Source of the DNA: Levilinea saccharolytica | GTDB lineage: Bacteria > Chloroflexota > Anaerolineae > Anaerolineales > Anaerolineaceae | Assembly: GCF_001306035.1 (NCBI RefSeq) | Contig: NZ_LGCM01000014.1 | Location: 62,501 to 126,500, forward strand | Reading direction: 5' to 3' | Length of the DNA: 64,000 nt | Part shown: positions 50,026 through 62,031 of the stretch, in pieces | How positions within the stretch are numbered: the first letter of the stretch is position 1 | Layout: every line of letters starts with the position of its first letter | Translations under genes and position numbers: made by a program | Notes under the pieces: generated by a model | What the model was told of the DNA's origin: nothing | The model's input: the letters and a program-made list of their open reading frames with translations, nothing else | Database searches by the model: none

Positions 50026-51123
50026 TTAATAGCGCAGCTGTGCGGCGATCATCCCTACGGTTTCCAGGTGTGCGTTGGTGTGCACCACCTCCACACTGCC
50101 GCCGTGGCGCATCACCCGGTGAATGGCCAGGTTGACCACATCCACGACGGCCGCGGGCTTTTTGCCGCAGTTTTCACACGCTTTTTCATCCAAAACCAAC
50201 ATCTCGCAATCGCCGCATTCAAACCCCGACTGTTGAAAACCCTCGGCCACCACCAGGTTGAGCACGCGATCTTCATTGACGGCTTTCAGCGTGTCAGTCA
50301 GGCCGACCACGGCTAACCCGCCCTTGGCCGCGGCGGTCACCAGATCATTCACCAGTTGTTCCTCGCGCAGACGTTCGCTTTCCATGCCAATTTGCATGGC
50401 GCGTTCCTGCACCTCTGCGTGGCTGGCGGTCATGCTCATGGCAAAGGTGCCTTTCACCAGGCTCTGCCAGGCTTTGGGCAGGGCCGCGCGGAAGAGGGCC
50501 GTGTTAGCGTCGGTGCCGCCGATGAGCACGCGGCGCACGTGGTTTTCTTCAAAGAAACGGCTGGCAAATTCGGCCGATTCCTTGATGTTGCGATCCACGG
50601 TCTCTTCCATGGCGCGCGTGCGCCCGGCAACGCCCCCCCGCCGCCCCGCCACGGTGGAGGCTCCCCCGCGCTTGACGTGCTTCACCGCCTCGCCCATCAC
50701 GCCTTCCTGCTCGCGCAGTTCGCCCAGATGGAAGAAGAACAGGCGCGCCCCTTGTTGGTCTACCAGGGCCACGCCGTAACCGCCGTAATTGTCCAGCAGA
50801 TCGGTGATGGGTTTCAGCGCCGGGCGGTCGGAAACGTTCACACGATCGCTGACCGGCAAGGCCAAAGGATAGGCCCGTAAGAAACCAGCCTCAGCGCACG
50901 AAAACACCGCCACGCCGCGGCCAGTTCCGTCATATTCCTGCATAAAGAAACGCTCAATTGCTTCCACATCCTGCGGCAGCTTGACCTCTTTCAAGAGGGT
51001 GCGCATGCGCAGCTTGTAGGAATCCGCGTTCCCTTTTGAAGGCTCGGTGTTCAGGTAGAGCGTAACCATTTGGGTTTTCGCCTTAAATTCCAAGAGCTCC
51101 CGCAGGTTGCTTTCCGTCAACAT
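50026..51123 (-). CDS. Archaeo-eukaryotic release factor 1-like protein (baeRF type)
   Basis: A 365-residue protein with three parts resembling archaeal/eukaryotic RF1. The middle part contains GRRGGVAGRTRAME (about residues 160-172) where aRF1 has the GGQ loop; the Gln is Val here. The C-terminal part has a zinc ribbon (CGDC about 303-306, CENCG about 316-320) and ends HLETVGMIAAQLRY, much like the aRF1 end. The bacterial baeRF families were described as ribosome-associated and tied to rescue or antibiotic response. AAGGAGG precedes the ATG at 51123. It is the third gene after a DnaJ-like gene and an HtrA-type protease. Confidence 0.78.
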   Translation of the reverse strand: MLTESNLRELLEFKAKTQMVTLYLNTEPSKGNADSYKLRMRTLLKEVKLPQDVEAIERFFMQEYDGTGRGVAVFSCAEAGFLRAYPLALPVSDRVNVSDRPALKPITDLLDNYGGYGVALVDQQGARLFFFHLGELREQEGVMGEAVKHVKRGGASTVAGRRGGVAGRTRAMEETVDRNIKESAEFASRFFEENHVRRVLIGGTDANTALFRAALPKAWQSLVKGTFAMSMTASHAEVQERAMQIGMESERLREEQLVNDLVTAAAKGGLAVVGLTDTLKAVNEDRVLNLVVAEGFQQSGFECGDCEMLVLDEKACENCGKKPAAVVDVVNLAIHRVMRHGGSVEVVHTNAHLETVGMIAAQLRY

Positions 51124-51162
51124 GGAAACCTCCTTCACAAATTGTTGAATGGGCCGAAACAG

Positions 51163-52329
51163 CTAAGACCGCTTGTCTAACGTGATTTTCACCTCCTGTT
51201 CCTTATTATCGCGCACAATGGTCAACGTGATGGTCTCGCCGGGGCTTTTGCTGGTCATCAAATAACTCAGCAAATCGCCAAACACGCGCACCGGCCGGCC
51301 GTCCACAGCGATGATCAGATCGCCGCCCTTGGATAAACCGGCCATGTTGGTGGCGGTTGTGCCGCCGCGCAGCCCGGCCTTATCCGCTGGGCCGCCAGGA
51401 ACCACTTCCACAATATAGGCGCCGGTGGAATACTTTAGCCCCAGGGCTTCCTGAGCGATCAGGCTCAGTTCCGGCATGGCGGAAATCCCCAGGTAGGGAT
51501 AGTCGTATTTCTTCTCCACAATCAGCACCGGCAGCACCCGCCGCATGATATTGCTGGAGATGGCAAAGCCGATGCCGCTGTTGACCGGCTCGCCGTCGGT
51601 GGTCATGCCGGTGGTGCGGATGGCGCGGTTGAGGCCGATGACCTCACCCCGCAGGTTGAGCAGCGGGCCGCCGGAGTTTCCGGGGTTGATGGAAGCGTCC
51701 GTCTGGATGATATCGCCCGCGGAGAAAAACGCGCCTTCTCCCGACGTACGCATGGAATCCAGGGTGCGTCCCTTGGCCGAGATGATCCCCAGGGTCATGG
51801 TGCCCGACAGGCCAAAGGGGTTGCCGATGGCCACCACGGGCTGACCCACCTGCAGTTGGTCGCTGTCGCCCAGGGGCAGGGGAACCAGTTGGTCGGCGGG
51901 GGCATCCACCTTAATCACCGCCAGGTCTGAGTCCAGATCCGTCGCCAGCACGGTGCCGCGTACCTTGAAACCGGTGGGGAAATCCACCTCTAAATCGGTA
52001 GCGCCTTCCACCACGTGATAATTGGTGACGATATGGCCTTCTTTGTCATACACAAAGCCAGACCCCAGACCGCTGCCGGGTTGGGTCAGCACCTGAATAG
52101 ACACCACCCCCGGGCTGGCGCGCTGGTACAGGTCTACCAGGTTGTTGCCCATGTCGGTCACATCCCCCTGAAAAGCGGGGGGCAGGTTGACCGCGGTGGG
52201 AATCAGCACCGGCGTGGGCGCGTTGGAAGACTGCGAATCTTGCATGGATGTTCGCGGGAAGGTAAACCCGCAAGCCAGGGTGGTCAGCGCCAGCACAGTC
52301 ACTGCGAAAAGAAGGGAAAGCTTTTTCAT
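51163..52329 (-). CDS. htrA: HtrA/DegP-like serine protease lipoprotein with PDZ domain
   Basis: A 388-residue extracytoplasmic protease. A signal with lipobox LTTLAC (Cys about residue 20) anchors it. The trypsin-like domain has His in TNYHVVEG, Asp in DSDLAVIKV and Ser in GNSGGPLLN; all three are present. A PDZ domain follows (about 285-385, YLGISAMPELS to the end). Proteases of this family clear damaged proteins. It follows the DnaJ-like gene by 35 bases and precedes the RF1-like gene by 39. Confidence 0.94.
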   Translation of the reverse strand: MKKLSLLFAVTVLALTTLACGFTFPRTSMQDSQSSNAPTPVLIPTAVNLPPAFQGDVTDMGNNLVDLYQRASPGVVSIQVLTQPGSGLGSGFVYDKEGHIVTNYHVVEGATDLEVDFPTGFKVRGTVLATDLDSDLAVIKVDAPADQLVPLPLGDSDQLQVGQPVVAIGNPFGLSGTMTLGIISAKGRTLDSMRTSGEGAFFSAGDIIQTDASINPGNSGGPLLNLRGEVIGLNRAIRTTGMTTDGEPVNSGIGFAISSNIMRRVLPVLIVEKKYDYPYLGISAMPELSLIAQEALGLKYSTGAYIVEVVPGGPADKAGLRGGTTATNMAGLSKGGDLIIAVDGRPVRVFGDLLSYLMTSKSPGETITLTIVRDNKEQEVKITLDKRS

Positions 52330-52364
52330 GTTTCACCTGCACTTTCAACAAATAATCGGAGCGG

Positions 52365-53291
52365 TCAGCCCACCTGGGACTGCCGCAGTTTTTCAAACAG
52401 GCCGCGCTGTTCTGCGGTTAAATTTTTCGGCAGCGTGACTTTGGCACGCACAAACAAATCGCCAAATTGATCCGGCTGGCGCAGTTTGGGCATGCCGCGG
52501 CCCGCCAGGCGGAAGGTCTGGCCGGGCTGGGTTCCGGCGGGGATGGTGAGCACCACACTGCCGCCCAGGGTGTTCACATTCACCTGCCCGCCCAACACCG
52601 CGGTGTATAAATCCACGGCGGCCTCGGTGTACAGGTCGTCGCCGCGCCGCTCAAAGCGCGGATCTTCAGCCACTTCAATTTTGAGGTACACATCCGCGTT
52701 CTGGCCGTTGGGGCCGCCCACGGCTGCCCCAGCCATGCGCACTTTCGTGCCGGTCTGGGCCCCGCGCGGGATTTTGACCTCCAGGCGGCGGCTGTCCACC
52801 TGCAGGGTACGCGCCGTGCCGTGATAGGCCTCTTCCAGGCTGATGCGCGCCACGGCCTCCACACGGCTGGGGCGCTGCTGGGCTGCCCGCCGCGGGCCGC
52901 TGGAGCCCAGTCCGCCGAAGATCATGTTGAAGAAATCCGAAAAGTCGGCCTGGCCAAAGATATCTTCCACCCGGCCGGTGCTGGTGCGCGCGCCGCCGCG
53001 CCCAAAACCCGTCTGCGTAAACCAGTCCTCCCAGTTAAAATTACCGGGGCTGCCGGTTTGCTGCCAGCGGGAATAATCCGCGCCGAGCTGATCATAGCGG
53101 CTGCGTTTTTGGGCGTCGCTGAGGACTTCATGAGCTTCGTTAATTTCTTTAAACTTATCCTCAGCCGCCTTATCGCCAGGGTTGCGGTCCGGATGGTACT
53201 GCATGGCGAGTTTACGGTACGCGCGCTTGATGTCTTCGGGGGTCGCGCTGCGTTCTACGCCTAAAATTTTGTAATAATCCTTATAGTCCAT
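52365..53291 (-). CDS. DnaJ-like co-chaperone without zinc finger (CbpA type)
   Basis: A 308-residue type II Hsp40: a J domain (residues 1-70) with HPD in [10 protein letters not shown], a Gly/Ser-rich linker and two C-terminal substrate-binding domains, with no CxxCxGxG repeats. It resembles CbpA, which can replace or redirect DnaJ. The ATG at 53291 ([12 protein letters not shown]) has GGAGT upstream; the longer frame covers the promoter. It opens an operon with HtrA and an RF1-like protein. Confidence 0.92.
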
Positions 53292-53308
53292 ACGTACTCC
53301 GTATTTTG

Positions 53309-53338
53309 ATTGTATGCCGATGTTTGCACCAGAGTCAA
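53309..53338 (-). promoter_or_regulatory. Promoter of the DnaJ-like/HtrA/RF1-like operon
   Basis: On the minus strand TTGACT (53333-53338), an 18-base spacer and TACAAT (53309-53314). No CIRCE is nearby, so this operon is not under HrcA control by sequence. Confidence 0.65.
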
Positions 53339-53422
53339 GAAGGGGCACAGGCTTTCTTATGGAACTCTAACGATCCGCATAAAATTCCTTAACATTTTCA
53401 CCCCAATTTATTCCATCCGTGC

Positions 53423-53428
53423 TATCAT
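53423..53428 (+). promoter_or_regulatory. -10 box of the first kinase gene (leaderless start)
   Basis: TATCAT ends 6 bases before the ATG at 53435, and no ribosome-binding site is present. Confidence 0.4.
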
Positions 53429-53434
53429 TATTGA

Positions 53435-55081
53435 ATGACCACTCCCACCCCGGAACGAATCCTGATTGTTGAGAACGACACCATCATCAGTGATCTGCTC
53501 TCCCGCCAGGCGTTAAAGTCGGCCGGGTATCAGACCTATGTGGCGCCCGATTCGTCCACGGCCATTGCCCGCGCTGTCCAGCTTTCGCCGGACGTCATCA
53601 TCGTGGATCTGTCCATCCCAGGCCTGAGCGGAAAGGACCTGATGGTGGCCTTCAGCGCGCAAAATTCGCAGACCCCGCTGATCGTTTTAGCCCGCAAGGG
53701 CACTGAGCTGGACATCATCCAGGCCTTTCGCCTGGGCGCCACCGATTATTTGATCTGGCCGGTGCGCGAGGCGGAGGTCGTAGCGGTGGTGGAACGCGCC
53801 CTCAAACTGGTGCGCGAACGGCGGGAACGCGATCAGCTTTCGCACCAGTTGCAGCAGACCAACCAGGAACTGCAAGCCCGCGTGCGCGAACTGACCACCA
53901 TCTTTTCCATCGGCAAGGCCGTCACCTCCATCACCGACCAGAGCCTGCTGTTTGAGCGCATTTTGGAAGGCGCCGCGCGCGTGACCCAAAGCGACATGGG
54001 CTGGATGCTGCTGCGCGACGAGGCTGGAAAGAATTTTGTGATGGTCGCCCAACGCGATCTGCCCGCCTCGGCCACCGCCTTCCTGAACCAGCCGTTTGAC
54101 GACGGCATCAGCTCTCTGGTGGCCATGAGCGGTGAGCCGCTTTCCATTCACGGTGAACCCATCAAGCGCTTCCGCATCGCCTCCTTCGGCCAATCGGCAC
54201 TGATTGTACCTATCAAGGTGCAGCGTCAAGTGATGGGCCTGCTGGTGGGCGTGCGCAAAGCCGCTGCTCCCTTTACCCCCAGCGAACAGCACCTCATGGA
54301 AGCCGTGGCCGATTACGCCTCGATCTCTTTGGTGAACGCGCGCCTGTTCCGCGAGGTAGAAGGCCGCGCTCGTTCGCTGCAAAGCCAATCCGAAAACGCC
54401 CAGGCGGGCGAGAAGATCACCAACGAGATTTTGCAGACGGCCAAAAAAGAACTGCGCCCGGCCGTGGATTTGGGCCAGCAAGCCCTGGAACGGCTGGCCA
54501 ATGACCCCGGGGCGCGTTGGACGGCGGAGCAGCGCAAATCTCTCAGCACCTTGCAGGAACAAATGCAGCGCATGGGGCGCATCACCGAGGCCGTTCTGCC
54601 CATCTCCACCAGTCCCGGCCCAGCCCGCATCAAGATCGGCGATGTGATTCAACAGGCAGTCAAACACTGCCAGCCGTTTGCCCAGCAAAACGATGTCAGC
54701 TTGATTATGGAAGGCAGCGCCGCACAAACCGTGTACGCTTCGGCAGGGCAAATTGTGCAGGTGCTGATTGGCCTGCTCACCAATGCCATCAAATTTTCCA
54801 ACCCCGGCGGACGGGTGACGGTGAGCGTAGATAAAGCCGCCGAAGGCCAGCTGCACATCGCTGTCACCGATGCCGGCCTCGGCGTGGATCCGGTTCATTT
54901 TGAACGGATTTTTGAAGGCAGCTACCAGCCCGATCGAACCCGCCCGGTGCGCTTTGGCGGGCTTGGCATTGGCCTGGGTCTGGCGCGTGAAATCATCACC
55001 CGGCACGGCGGCAAGCTGTGGGTGGAAAGCAAACCCGGTCAGGGCGCGGCCTTCCACCTGACTTTGCCCACAGTGCCCTAA
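53435..55081 (+). CDS. Receiver-GAF-HATPase protein lacking the phosphoacceptor His
   Basis: A 548-residue cytoplasmic protein. Residues 8-120 are a receiver with Asp58 retained (VIIVDLSIPGLSG), but the conserved Thr and Lys are Ala (VLAR) and Trp (LIWP). A coiled coil (about 125-155) leads to a GAF domain (about 165-305). A HisKA-like helix pair follows, where the H-box reads AKKELRP: His is replaced by Lys338. The ATPase domain is intact, with N-box Asn450, DAGLG and GGLGIGLGLA. It could be a pseudokinase or a partner of the next gene, 15 bases downstream. A -10 box 6 bases before the ATG implies a leaderless mRNA. Confidence 0.9.
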   Translation: MTTPTPERILIVENDTIISDLLSRQALKSAGYQTYVAPDSSTAIARAVQLSPDVIIVDLSIPGLSGKDLMVAFSAQNSQTPLIVLARKGTELDIIQAFRLGATDYLIWPVREAEVVAVVERALKLVRERRERDQLSHQLQQTNQELQARVRELTTIFSIGKAVTSITDQSLLFERILEGAARVTQSDMGWMLLRDEAGKNFVMVAQRDLPASATAFLNQPFDDGISSLVAMSGEPLSIHGEPIKRFRIASFGQSALIVPIKVQRQVMGLLVGVRKAAAPFTPSEQHLMEAVADYASISLVNARLFREVEGRARSLQSQSENAQAGEKITNEILQTAKKELRPAVDLGQQALERLANDPGARWTAEQRKSLSTLQEQMQRMGRITEAVLPISTSPGPARIKIGDVIQQAVKHCQPFAQQNDVSLIMEGSAAQTVYASAGQIVQVLIGLLTNAIKFSNPGGRVTVSVDKAAEGQLHIAVTDAGLGVDPVHFERIFEGSYQPDRTRPVRFGGLGIGLGLAREIITRHGGKLWVESKPGQGAAFHLTLPTVP

Positions 55082-55096
55082 AAAAGGCGTTCTCGC

Positions 55097-57070
55097 ATGG
55101 GTATTCCGTCCAAAGAAACCATCCTCCTTGTCGTTTCAGACCGGCAGATCAGTTTTTTGCTGGAAAAGATCCTGGCTGCTGCCAATTTCCAGGTGATCAA
55201 CGCGGTGGAACCCGCCTCAGTGCGCAGCGCCATTGTGCGCGATAAGCCTGCCCTGATCATTGTGGCAGAAAAAGTTGGCGAACTGGACGGTTTGACCCTG
55301 CTGGGAGATTTCATCAAAGATATCCCTGCTGCCCCCGTGCTGCTGCTGGTGAGCAAAGACACCCCCGAGCTGCTCAAGCGGGCCTTGCAGGCGGGCGTCA
55401 ACGATTACCTGACCCTGCCCCTGCGCACCGAAGACCTGTTGGGGGCCGTGCAAAACAGCCTGTCGCGCGCCCACCAGCGCAAAGAATGGGTGCTGCTGGA
55501 ATCCAAGCGCGCCTCGGCCAGTTTGCAGCGCCGTGTGGACGAGATGGAAACCCTGGCGCGCCTGGGACGCACCATCACCAGCTCGCTGGATTTGGACAGC
55601 GTGCTCACCGCGGTGGTAGAGGCGGCGGTCACCTGCCTGGGGGCCGAAGAAGGCAGTTTGATGCTGGTGGATGAAGAGACCGGCGAGCTGTATATGCGCG
55701 CCACTCGCAACGTGGACGACGCCTTTGCGCGCGCCTTCCGCATGCCCGTTCAAAACACCCTGCTGGGGTCGGTGCTGAGCACGGGAAAAGCGGTGCTGAT
55801 TGACGAGAAGACCCCCCAAAAGATCAAAACCGCCTTCCTGGTGCACAGCCTCATCTACGTCCCCTTGCAGGTGAAGGGTCACGTTTTCGGTATCCTGGGG
55901 GTGGATAACCGCCTGGAGCGGCTGAGCTTCACCGACCGAGATGTGCGCCTGCTGGAAGCCATCGCCGAATACGCTGTGGTGGCCCTGGAAAACGCGCGCC
56001 GCTACACCAATACCTCAGAAGAGCTGAAGAAGCTGGAAACCGTGCTGCAGGGCATTCAAGACGGCGTGATCGTCACCGATCAAGACCGGCGCATTTTGCT
56101 GGTGAACCCGGTGGCCCGCGAGGCCTTTGGCTTGGAGCGCGACGCCGCGCTGAGCGGACGGCAGTTCCACGAAATTTTCCCCCAGGCAGAGATGCAAGCG
56201 CTGATTCAGACCAACACCGGCAGCCTCACCAACCGCGCCGAGATCAGCGTGGAAGATGGGCGCGTGTTCAGCGTGTTGGCCACCAGCATTTCGGGCCTGG
56301 GCAAGGCGCTGGCGCTGCACGACATCACCTATCTGAAGAAGATGGACAAGATCAAGAGCGACTTCGTCTCCACCGTCTCCCACGACCTGCGCTCCCCGCT
56401 GACCGCCATCATGGGCTACGTGGAGCTGATTGACCGCGTGGGGCCGGTGAACGAACGCCAGCGCGAATTTATCCGGCGGGTGCACGTCAACGTGATCAAC
56501 ATCACCAGCCTGATTGACGACCTGCTGAATCTGGGACACATTGAATCGGGCTTTGACTCGACCAAAGAGAGCGTCCACCTGGGTCAGTTGGTGGAATTTG
56601 CCATTGAGGGCTTCCGGCGCCAGATTGACATGAAGGATATGGAGCTGAAGGTGGAACTGCCCGCCAGCCTGCCGTCCATCCTGGCCAACCCGGTACAGAT
56701 CCGCCAGATGGTGGACAAGATGCTCGACAACGCCATCAAGTACACCCCGCCAGGCGGCAGCGTGACGCTGCGCGGCGAGCAGGAGGGCGACCAGGTGATC
56801 TTGCAGGTGTGCGACAACGGCATCGGCGTGCCCGCTGTGGATCTGCCCTACATCTTCGACAAGTTCTACCGCGCCAGCAACCTGAGCGGCAATATCCCCG
56901 GCGCGGGGTTGGGGCTGGCCATCGTCAAATCCATTGTGGAGGCGCACCAGGGGCGCATTTGGGTGGATTCAACCCCCGGGCGCGGGACCACCTTTACGGT
57001 GGTGCTGCCCATCTCGCCGGTGACCGAGCTGCCCGCCGACCGCCTGCTGGACTCCCCCGACGCGGGGTAG
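55097..57070 (+). CDS. Pseudo-receiver-GAF-PAS histidine kinase
   Basis: A 657-residue kinase. The N-terminal receiver-like domain (about residues 8-120) has Ala where the phosphoacceptor Asp should be (LIIVAEKVGELDG, A57), so it cannot be phosphorylated normally. A GAF domain (about 145-300) and a PAS domain (about 308-412) follow. The kinase core is canonical: STVSHDLRSPLTAIMGY with His429, N-box Asn545, VCDNGIG and GAGLGLAIV. It is the only protein of the pair with a usable phosphoacceptor His. The operon has no conventional response regulator with an output domain. Confidence 0.92.
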   Translation: MGIPSKETILLVVSDRQISFLLEKILAAANFQVINAVEPASVRSAIVRDKPALIIVAEKVGELDGLTLLGDFIKDIPAAPVLLLVSKDTPELLKRALQAGVNDYLTLPLRTEDLLGAVQNSLSRAHQRKEWVLLESKRASASLQRRVDEMETLARLGRTITSSLDLDSVLTAVVEAAVTCLGAEEGSLMLVDEETGELYMRATRNVDDAFARAFRMPVQNTLLGSVLSTGKAVLIDEKTPQKIKTAFLVHSLIYVPLQVKGHVFGILGVDNRLERLSFTDRDVRLLEAIAEYAVVALENARRYTNTSEELKKLETVLQGIQDGVIVTDQDRRILLVNPVAREAFGLERDAALSGRQFHEIFPQAEMQALIQTNTGSLTNRAEISVEDGRVFSVLATSISGLGKALALHDITYLKKMDKIKSDFVSTVSHDLRSPLTAIMGYVELIDRVGPVNERQREFIRRVHVNVINITSLIDDLLNLGHIESGFDSTKESVHLGQLVEFAIEGFRRQIDMKDMELKVELPASLPSILANPVQIRQMVDKMLDNAIKYTPPGGSVTLRGEQEGDQVILQVCDNGIGVPAVDLPYIFDKFYRASNLSGNIPGAGLGLAIVKSIVEAHQGRIWVDSTPGRGTTFTVVLPISPVTELPADRLLDSPDAG

Positions 57071-61188: not shown

Positions 61189-61563
61189 TTACTCCTCCCA
61201 ATCCTCCCAATCACCAGGGTCCAGCTGACGCCAGCGCTTGGCCTCGGAACGGTGGGCCTTATCCTTCAGCCGGCTGCCGCCGGAGGGGCGCGTGGCCTTG
61301 CGCACCTTGGGCACCACGCTGGCCTGACGGATCAGCTCCACCAGGCGCTCCACGGCGTCCTGGCGGTTTTGCTCCTGGGTGCGGAAGCGGCGCGCTTCGA
61401 TGAACAGCACGCCGTCTTCGGTCAGCCGGTTGCGGGCCAGTTTGGACAGGCGGTCTTTGATGTCTTCCGGCAGGCTGGCGGCGGTGATGTCGTAACGCAG
61501 CTGCACCGCCGTGGCGACCTTGTTCATGCCCTGGAGGACTGCCGGTACACTTCTCGCTATCAT
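61189..61563 (-). pseudogene. N-terminally degraded arfB copy
   Basis: A 124-residue frame that matches the neighbouring ArfB from the residue after its GGQ motif (GMNKVATAVQLRYD) to the end, roughly half identical by eye. The first 25 or so residues, including the GGQ catalytic loop, are lost or scrambled; the DNA before it shows remnants such as CCAGGGC where CCAGGGGGCCAG would be expected. Without GGQ it cannot hydrolyse peptidyl-tRNA. It lies 42 bases downstream of the intact arfB, so it appears to be one copy of a duplication that decayed. Confidence 0.65.
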
Positions 61564-61605
61564 TTAGCTACCTGCGGGAGCCCAGTCCCAGGAGGAAAAA
61601 GAAGG

Positions 61606-62031
61606 TCACTCCCAATCTTCCGGGACATATCGCCGAATCCGCTTAGTTTCGCCATGTTTTTTCTTGTCGCCCACCCGAGCCGCTTTTGCAGTAACGCTCG
61701 GGCGGGTTGCTTTTCTTTCCTTGGGTTTTTCGAGGGCTTTTTGGATCCAGGTGATCAGGCGTTGGGTGGCATCGAAGCGATTTTGCTCCTGGGTGCGGTA
61801 GCGCTTGGCTTCGATGATCAAGATTCCATCCTCAGTGACGCGGCTGCCGGCCAGCTTGATCAGGCGTTCTTTGACTTCGGAAGCCAGTGAGGGGGAATTG
61901 CGAATATCAAAGCGAAGTTGAACTGAAGACGCGACCTTATTTACGTTCTGGCCACCAGGGCCAGACGCGCGGATGAAATCGAGTTGGATTTCGCTTTCAT
62001 CAATTTTTAGGGTCGGGGTAACCTCAATCAT
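61606..62031 (-). CDS. arfB: Alternative ribosome-rescue peptidyl-tRNA hydrolase ArfB
   Basis: A 141-residue release-factor-like hydrolase that frees stalled ribosomes. The catalytic GGQ lies in ASGPGGQNVNK (residues 23-33), and the C-terminal basic tail (KPKERKATRP...KKKHGETKR) inserts into the mRNA channel. Length and layout are standard for ArfB/YaeJ. It starts 17 bases after the integrase end. A decayed second copy follows. Confidence 0.93.
   Translation of the reverse strand: MIEVTPTLKIDESEIQLDFIRASGPGGQNVNKVASSVQLRFDIRNSPSLASEVKERLIKLAGSRVTEDGILIIEAKRYRTQEQNRFDATQRLITWIQKALEKPKERKATRPSVTAKAARVGDKKKHGETKRIRRYVPEDWE

Follow-up and report, generated by a model that had tools for sequence, protein, structure and literature searches.

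A histidine-kinase-like protein without its phosphoacceptor, encoded beside a paralogue that retains it, in Levilinea saccharolytica and other Anaerolineales

Introduction

What role can a protein with the layout of a histidine kinase have once its phosphoacceptor histidine is lost? The question is raised by two tandem genes, here called P1 and P2, in a 64,000-nucleotide (nt) stretch of the Levilinea saccharolytica genome (contig NZ_LGCM01000014.1, positions 62,501 to 126,500 of the forward strand; below, the window, in whose own numbering all positions are given). An initial annotation of the window had described the pair as receiver-kinase proteins with reciprocal loss of phosphorylation residues, and had suggested either a split relay or a sensor pair that signals through binding. 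Comparison with orthologues from the order Anaerolineales somewhat favours the view that P1 is a non-catalytic regulatory partner of the kinase P2, derived from a duplication in which the labour was divided.

Results

Domain layout of the gene pair

The two genes lie on a common strand, 15 nt apart, and comprise the following features (amino acids, aa; open reading frame, ORF).

53435..55081 (+): P1, a pseudo-receiver - GAF - pseudo-DHp - ATPase protein of 548 aa (ORF, Pfam, orthologue alignment, structure model)
53456..53794 (+): P1 receiver, residues 8-120, with Glu13, Asn14, Asp58, Ala86 and Trp108; phosphorylation site incomplete (Pfam, alignment)
53768..53929 (+): P1 long linker helix, residues 112-165 (predicted structure model)
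53948..54331 (+): P1 GAF, residues 172-299 (Pfam; non-synonymous to synonymous rate ratio, dN/dS, of 0.007 over residues 161-310)
54386..54610 (+): P1 DHp-like helical hairpin, residues 318-392, with Lys338 at the H-box His position (sequence, alignment, shuffle test, model)
54743..55072 (+): P1 ATPase (CA) domain, residues 437-546, in which the window copy retains the N, G1 and G2 boxes (Pfam, alignment)
55097..57070 (+): P2, a pseudo-receiver - GAF - PAS - HisKA - ATPase histidine kinase of 657 aa (ORF, Pfam, structure model)
55124..55450 (+): P2 receiver, residues 10-118, degenerate, with Val13, Ser14, Ala57 and Leu107 (Pfam, alignment)
55586..55990 (+): P2 GAF, residues 164-298 (Pfam)
56030..56269 (+): P2 PAS, residues 312-391 (Pfam)
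56354..56551 (+): P2 HisKA, residues 420-485, with His429 at 56381-56383 (Pfam; orthologue comparison below)
56687..57013 (+): P2 ATPase domain, residues 531-639 (Pfam, alignment)

Pfam searches of P1 matched Response_reg (E = 4.4e-17), GAF (5.3e-12) and HATPase_c (2.3e-24), and HisKA stayed below the Pfam cut-off (E = 0.24; 11.9 bits versus 26.9). The predicted structure of P1 (pLDDT 87.1, pTM 0.52) ran from the receiver through the long helix and GAF to a two-helix DHp and then the ATPase domain, and the many histidine kinases that Foldseek matched to its kinase core included HK853 and DivL (structure 4q20). Together with the HATPase_c match, this gives P1 the layout of a histidine kinase, DHp followed by ATPase domain. 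With Lys338 (codon 54446-54448) in place of the phosphoacceptor it is a pseudo-histidine kinase, and the DHp-like stretch (residues 318-392) contains no histidine at all, which answers the check for a phosphoacceptor elsewhere in P1 that the annotation had proposed. P2 matched Response_reg (4.1e-9), GAF_2 (6.5e-20), PAS (4.4e-8), HisKA (6.7e-18) and HATPase_c (4.6e-31), and has the sequence hallmarks of a histidine kinase: a HisKA domain with its His and the N, G1 and G2 boxes.

The residues on which the annotation had rested were borne out by the orthologue alignments. P1 keeps Asp58 (codon 53606-53608) and carries Lys for the kinase His; P2 keeps His429, with Ala57 (codon 55265-55267) at the receiver Asp position. 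The reported absence of Thr and Lys from the P1 receiver was likewise found (Ala86 and Trp108, respectively), and Asn14 occupies the position of the second metal-binding acid. The P2 receiver is also without the acidic pair (Val13, Ser14) and the Lys (Leu107). Both domains score above the PF00072 cut-off with active-site residues missing, and both are thereby pseudo-receivers as the term is defined in PMC12632262, a PF00072 member missing at least one of five active-site residues. A whole-genome search with P1 (E <= 1e-3) returned no other receiver within the window, a partner response regulator not being sought genome-wide; the P1-P2 operon therefore contains no response regulator, as had been stated.

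Unequal loss of kinase parts from P1 and P2

Eighty-six Anaerolineales regions were fetched around P1 matches (39 + 7 + 40), together with 13 outgroup regions. The P1 set comprised 87 orthologues scoring at least 190 bits in 86 genomes, the window included. It contained the near-identical G001, which was omitted from the analyses of rate co-variation, intergenic words and the promoter element, and both of the P1-like genes of G038, each of which was counted. P1-like ORFs below 190 bits were placed outside the 87 (the outgroup genes in L086, L088, L090 and L092, and a fragment in L080). The P2 set held 73 orthologues of at least 290 bits; weaker candidates, the P2 of G048 among them, fell outside it, and a lower threshold readmits G048.

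The H-box His was present in all 73 P2 orthologues. At the lower threshold it was found in 73 of the 74 readable downstream P2 genes, the sole exception being that of G048 (225 bits). In P1 the H-box was recognisable in only 11 of the 87 (10 by the strict pattern, one as HELRTSL). The remaining 76 lacked a working H-box, 36 of them with an ATPase domain and 40 without. When only losses were allowed on the P1 tree, the His had to be lost 17 times and the ATPase domain 16 times, or at least 8 and at least 10 times once weak forks were collapsed; unordered parsimony gave 5 His changes and 13 ATPase-domain changes. The DHp-like hairpin outlasted the ATPase domain: it was detected in 31 of the 40 ATPase-less P1 proteins at E < 0.001, a level that 1 of 800 shuffled tails reached, and in 34 at E < 0.05, where 25 of the shuffled tails matched. 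In four ATPase-less proteins the tail was 30 residues or shorter and the hairpin was gone.

In G048 the roles appeared to be swapped (L061:2414-5464). Its P2 reads SLQLRSPLT, with Leu at the H-box, and its P1 retains LAHELRAPL; the N boxes of both were altered (Asp for Asn in P2, Lys in P1). The swap was seen in one genome, with no second member of its genus in the set examined. At the locus of G038 (L058:2148-7586), P2 was joined in tandem by two P1-like genes, each with the H-box His. This triplet is perhaps an intermediate of the duplication.

Selection and conservation of the domains

The receiver and GAF of P1 are under strong selection, and the receiver is not drifting. Compared with a genome of the same genus, P1 gave a dN/dS of 0.036 for the whole gene, and of 0.012, 0.007, 0.089 and 0.067 for the receiver, GAF, DHp-like and ATPase regions, the domain values resting on 1, 1, 6 and 7 non-synonymous differences in this one genome pair. 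Across 36 pairs in which both genes were long, the mean pairwise identity of P1 was 54.6% in the receiver, 52.9% in GAF, 23.9% in the DHp-like region and 31.4% in the ATPase domain. For P2 the corresponding figures were 28.8%, 61.4%, 73.5% and 51.9%, with 37.9% in PAS.

GAF was missing from 12 of the 73 P2 orthologues (11 of family f12, and G158), all 12 of which adjoin an ATPase-less P1. In family f12, GAF is found solely in P1 and the ATPase domain solely in P2. A metagenome-assembled genome (MAG) of Candidatus Villigracilaceae provides an example of this type, with a P1 of 383 aa and a P2 of 482 aa.

The receivers and the proposed split relay

A split relay, in which P2 would autophosphorylate at His429 and hand the phosphate to Asp58 of P1 as an intermediate or sink, is suggested by the window itself, with its His in P2 and its Asp in P1. 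The Asp58 position was, however, occupied in the 87 P1 proteins by Asn (35), Asp (31), Ser (18), Ala (2) or Glu (1), and even within the window's own family of 27 by Asp in 17, Asn in 9 and Glu in 1; on the P1 tree it switched between Asp and another residue 17 times. The Thr position was Ala in 74 of 87, and the Lys position was Trp in 44 and Lys in 19. None of the 87 P1 receivers had the complete five-residue site (Asp, the acidic pair, Thr/Ser and Lys) that a phosphorelay from P2 to P1 calls for, and in the window copy the second metal-binding acid, Thr and Lys are all replaced. With so variable a residue in a site that is never complete, Asp58 of the window P1 is unlikely to be needed as a phosphorylation site. 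We have rejected the split relay on these grounds and regard it as very improbable, even with an Asp in P1 only in 15 of the 71 pairs described below.

The receiver Asp was present in 28 of the 73 P2 orthologues; of 71 paired P2, 3 had all five residues of the site, and these were all from family f5. When both members of these 71 pairs were scored (one P2, cut before its receiver, counting as without Asp), the Asp was found in both proteins in 7, in P1 only in 15, in P2 only in 19 and in neither in 30; approximately 8 pairs with both would be expected if the two were independent. The reciprocal arrangement is therefore one of four combinations, and the pattern is local. The placing of phosphodonor and acceptor on different proteins holds for the window residues, but as a rule for the pair reciprocal Asp loss was discarded.

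Distribution and origin of the pair

The samples used for the distribution overlap, the named loci largely repeating the fetched genomes, and their counts were not summed. As the 86 genomes were selected for a P1 match, the 87 orthologues are uninformative on the prevalence of P1. A P1 match at E <= 1e-40 was obtained in 40 of 61 genomes (the source genome included), and a P2 match at E <= 1e-80 also in 40 of 61, the weakest of these being other kinases. The receiver-GAF half was matched at E <= 1e-35 in up to 184 of the 301 Anaerolineales genomes, an upper bound because the receiver-GAF part of P2 can score that high, as in G055. The nearest named record was a Levilinea MAG contig with a P1 97% identical to that of the window.

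P2 followed P1 downstream on the same strand in 77 of the 87 cases (counting G140, whose P2 is cut at the contig end), and in three more cases less than 900 nt of contig remained. Among 80 named loci, 67 of 79 P1 genes were followed by P2, and 5 contigs were too short. The recurrence of the pair across the order shows that the arrangement is not due to chance, and bears out the co-conservation of the two genes for which the annotation had proposed to look. Named cultured strains with the pair were Bellilinea caldifistulae GOMI-1, Longilinea arvoryzae KOME-1 and Ornatilinea apprima P3M-1. A search of the open-access literature by taxon, judged by title and the start of the abstract, returned no paper on the P1-P2 gene pair.

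Single-gene relatives with an intact receiver and HisKA (L089 and L081) fall outside the order. L089, from another order of the same class, is one 640-aa REC-GAF-PAS-HisKA-ATPase protein (REC, receiver), 43% identical to P2, whose receiver and HisKA matched at 98 and 83 bits. In more distant members of the phylum, seven genes for proteins of about 800 aa matched P2. Four of these (806-819 aa) had canonical N-terminal receivers, and L081, the sole one of the four that was scanned, also had HisKA, an ATPase domain and a second receiver. The simplest history suggested by these sequences would be that an intact REC-GAF-PAS kinase was duplicated in Anaerolineales, and that the copies then eroded unequally.

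Discussion

P1 has retained its receiver, linker helix, GAF and hairpin without their chemistry and lies beside a live paralogue built on the same plan, a combination that suggests a regulatory partner. We therefore consider it somewhat probable that P1 is a non-catalytic regulator of P2 that arose by duplication and division of labour. The ancestor would have been a single REC-GAF-PAS-histidine kinase with receiver and kinase intact. After its duplication P2 would have kept the kinase, autophosphorylating at His429 and passing the phosphoryl group to a response regulator presumably encoded elsewhere, and P1 would have lost the phosphoacceptor but retained the fold of the receiver, the long linker helix, GAF and the DHp-like hairpin. 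The GAF domain of P1 may sense a ligand, and P1 may set P2 activity by binding P2, with either its dimerisation-type helices or the surface of its receiver as the contact. Of the suggestions made in the annotation, a sensor pair signalling through binding fits better than the relay, given the adjacency of the genes and the parts of P1 that were kept as catalysis was lost; the contact itself is inferred.

A more specific version, which we hold only tentatively, is that P1 and P2 are the regulatory and catalytic chains of one sensor kinase, forming a near-obligate hetero-complex in most of the Anaerolineales that carry P1. The assignment would be clearest in family f12 and flipped in G048, with the pseudo-receiver surface gating the kinase in trans.

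The rates of evolution lend modest backing to a link between the two proteins. Over 30 loci, the rates of the P1 receiver-GAF part and of P2 co-varied with a partial r of 0.49 given HtrA and DnaJ, the products of neighbouring genes (permutation p = 0.0005). By domain, the values were 0.45 for the P1 receiver and the P2 kinase, 0.13 for the P1 receiver and P2 GAF, and 0.37 for the two GAF domains.

Several observations weigh against P1 as a dedicated partner of P2. A test similar to the above left 0.33 for P1 and DnaJ and 0.67 for HtrA and DnaJ, so the co-variation is unspecific and may reflect a shared history or neighbourhood. The low ratios for the P1 receiver and GAF come from the few substitutions given above. 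Seven of the 87 P1 genes had no P2 within 2,500 nt downstream (G034, G195, G080, G015, G045, G058 and G014), although the P2 of G015 was located on another contig, and two of the seven encode pseudokinases (G195, and G034, which is 65% complete). Conversely, P2 stood beside the DnaJ gene without P1 in G012, G005, G044 and G057; P1 is therefore at times dispensable while P2 stays. A strict split of domains is contradicted by G048, where a P2 without GAF adjoins a P1 with an ATPase domain, and P2 in G044 and G057 has no GAF and no adjacent P1, so that the loss of GAF from P2 does not need P1.

The P1 genes without an adjacent P2 would also suit an independent homodimeric pseudo-receiver/GAF adaptor that never contacts P2 and serves some other partner, such as a response regulator or protease system. 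The modelled layout of P1 could homodimerise, and of 86 loci 43 have an HtrA gene and 41 a DnaJ gene next to the pair. We nevertheless think such an adaptor unlikely, though a serious contender, since P2 is adjacent in 77 of 87 cases, the ancestry and layout of the two proteins are common, and their domain losses in family f12 are complementary. Less probable again is a role as DivL in reverse or as a phosphatase, where the DHp-like region would bind the response regulator of P2 and sequester or dephosphorylate it. The hairpin kept without catalysis and the nucleotide-binding boxes left in the ATPase domain of the window P1 speak for this role. With 23.9% identity, however, the DHp-like region is more variable than any other part of P1, unlike a docking site for a response regulator. 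Moreover, position +4 of the H-box, part of the phosphatase motif, is Pro342 in the window and Thr in 16 and Asn in 5 of the 87, from which a phosphatase activity of P1 was judged unlikely. Catalytic residues and the ATPase domain were lost repeatedly, four genomes are without P1, and in G055 a 223-aa ATPase remnant lies between DnaJ and P2 in place of P1, all of which could be read as the decay of a functionless duplicate. This we regard as the least probable explanation of all and have rejected on the dN/dS of P1, low in the whole gene and lowest in receiver and GAF; the occurrence of the receiver-GAF half in as many as 184 of 301 genomes also speaks against it.

P1 as a partner of P2 may work by analogy with the known pseudo-histidine kinases DivL, ChrS and RetS. 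DivL is a membrane protein that contains PAS domains and is not linked to its partner. P1 resembles it in having a kinase fold without the His and in possibly controlling another kinase, but is soluble by its domains, has a REC-GAF arrangement, adjoins its paralogue and lacks the ATPase domain in 40 of 87 orthologues. For the DivL-CckA system of Caulobacter, PMC9491836 states that DivL needs neither its ATPase domain nor its phospho-residue. The same source describes the ATPase-less pseudokinase ChrS of Corynebacterium, which acts via its paralogue HrrS and confers a growth benefit that removal of the DHp abolishes; as told there, the case arose in a laboratory selection, and the truncated form showed no significant heterodimerisation. 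ChrS belongs to another histidine-kinase system, whereas P1 forms a natural series over one order. In Pseudomonas, one sensor kinase, RetS, is described as modulating another, GacS (PMC5992135). Compared with RetS, P1 is without a complete receiver site. RetS and GacS are not known to be tandem paralogues.

The pseudo-receivers of ShkA and CikA have the receiver fold without key phosphorylation residues and inhibit the kinase, according to PMC12632262; they act in cis, and that of P1 is in a separate protein, N-terminal to GAF. The same account counts HisKA domains without His as rare (722 of 76,471) and terms the mechanisms that switch bacterial pseudo-receivers a mystery. What differs here is that dead and live paralogues stand in tandem across the order, that the losses are graded, that the pseudo-receiver belongs to a protein of its own and that the domain losses in family f12 are complementary. 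Within one order the forms of P1 make a natural series, from one with the His through one lacking it, one lacking the ATPase domain and one lacking the hairpin to complete absence, nearly always with the same partner. The pair allows tests of which portions of a dead kinase are important, and of whether kinase gating by a pseudo-receiver occurs in trans.

Neighbouring genes and promoter region

Two further features precede the pair.

51163..53348 (-): HtrA-like protease and DnaJ genes, divergent from the pair; they are conserved neighbours and not part of it (ORFs, neighbourhood survey)
53420..53428 (+): TGCTATCAT, an extended -10-like element that ends 6 nt upstream of the start codon of P1 (sequence)

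Of 86 loci, 43 had a gene for HtrA, 41 one for DnaJ and 35 one for a baeRF-family protein in divergent orientation upstream. In the window, a conserved cluster divergent from the pair (50026-53348, minus strand) consists of HtrA, DnaJ and a release-factor-like gene of baeRF family 10; it is kept also where P1 is missing, and an HtrA-like gene is likewise divergent from the single-gene relative in L081.

The pattern TGnTAnnnT, an extended -10-like element, ended 6-9 nt upstream of the start codon of P1 in 28 of the 85 loci, and was present within 60 nt in 39 of 85, versus 7% in shuffled sequences. This placement suggests that the P1 transcript may be leaderless and that this is conserved. The word AGTCAAG occurred in 22 of 35 DnaJ-P1 intergenic regions, with no word in more than 8 in 20 shuffled sets; read on the DnaJ strand as CTTGACT, it resembles a -35 box. 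Heat-shock control by CIRCE was considered and discarded, with no such element at up to 4 substitutions in the 35 DnaJ-P1 intergenic regions. Farther along the window (61189-62031, minus strand), two neighbouring ORFs of 124 and 141 aa are 54% identical and carry a GGQ motif; they resemble short release-factor-like proteins.

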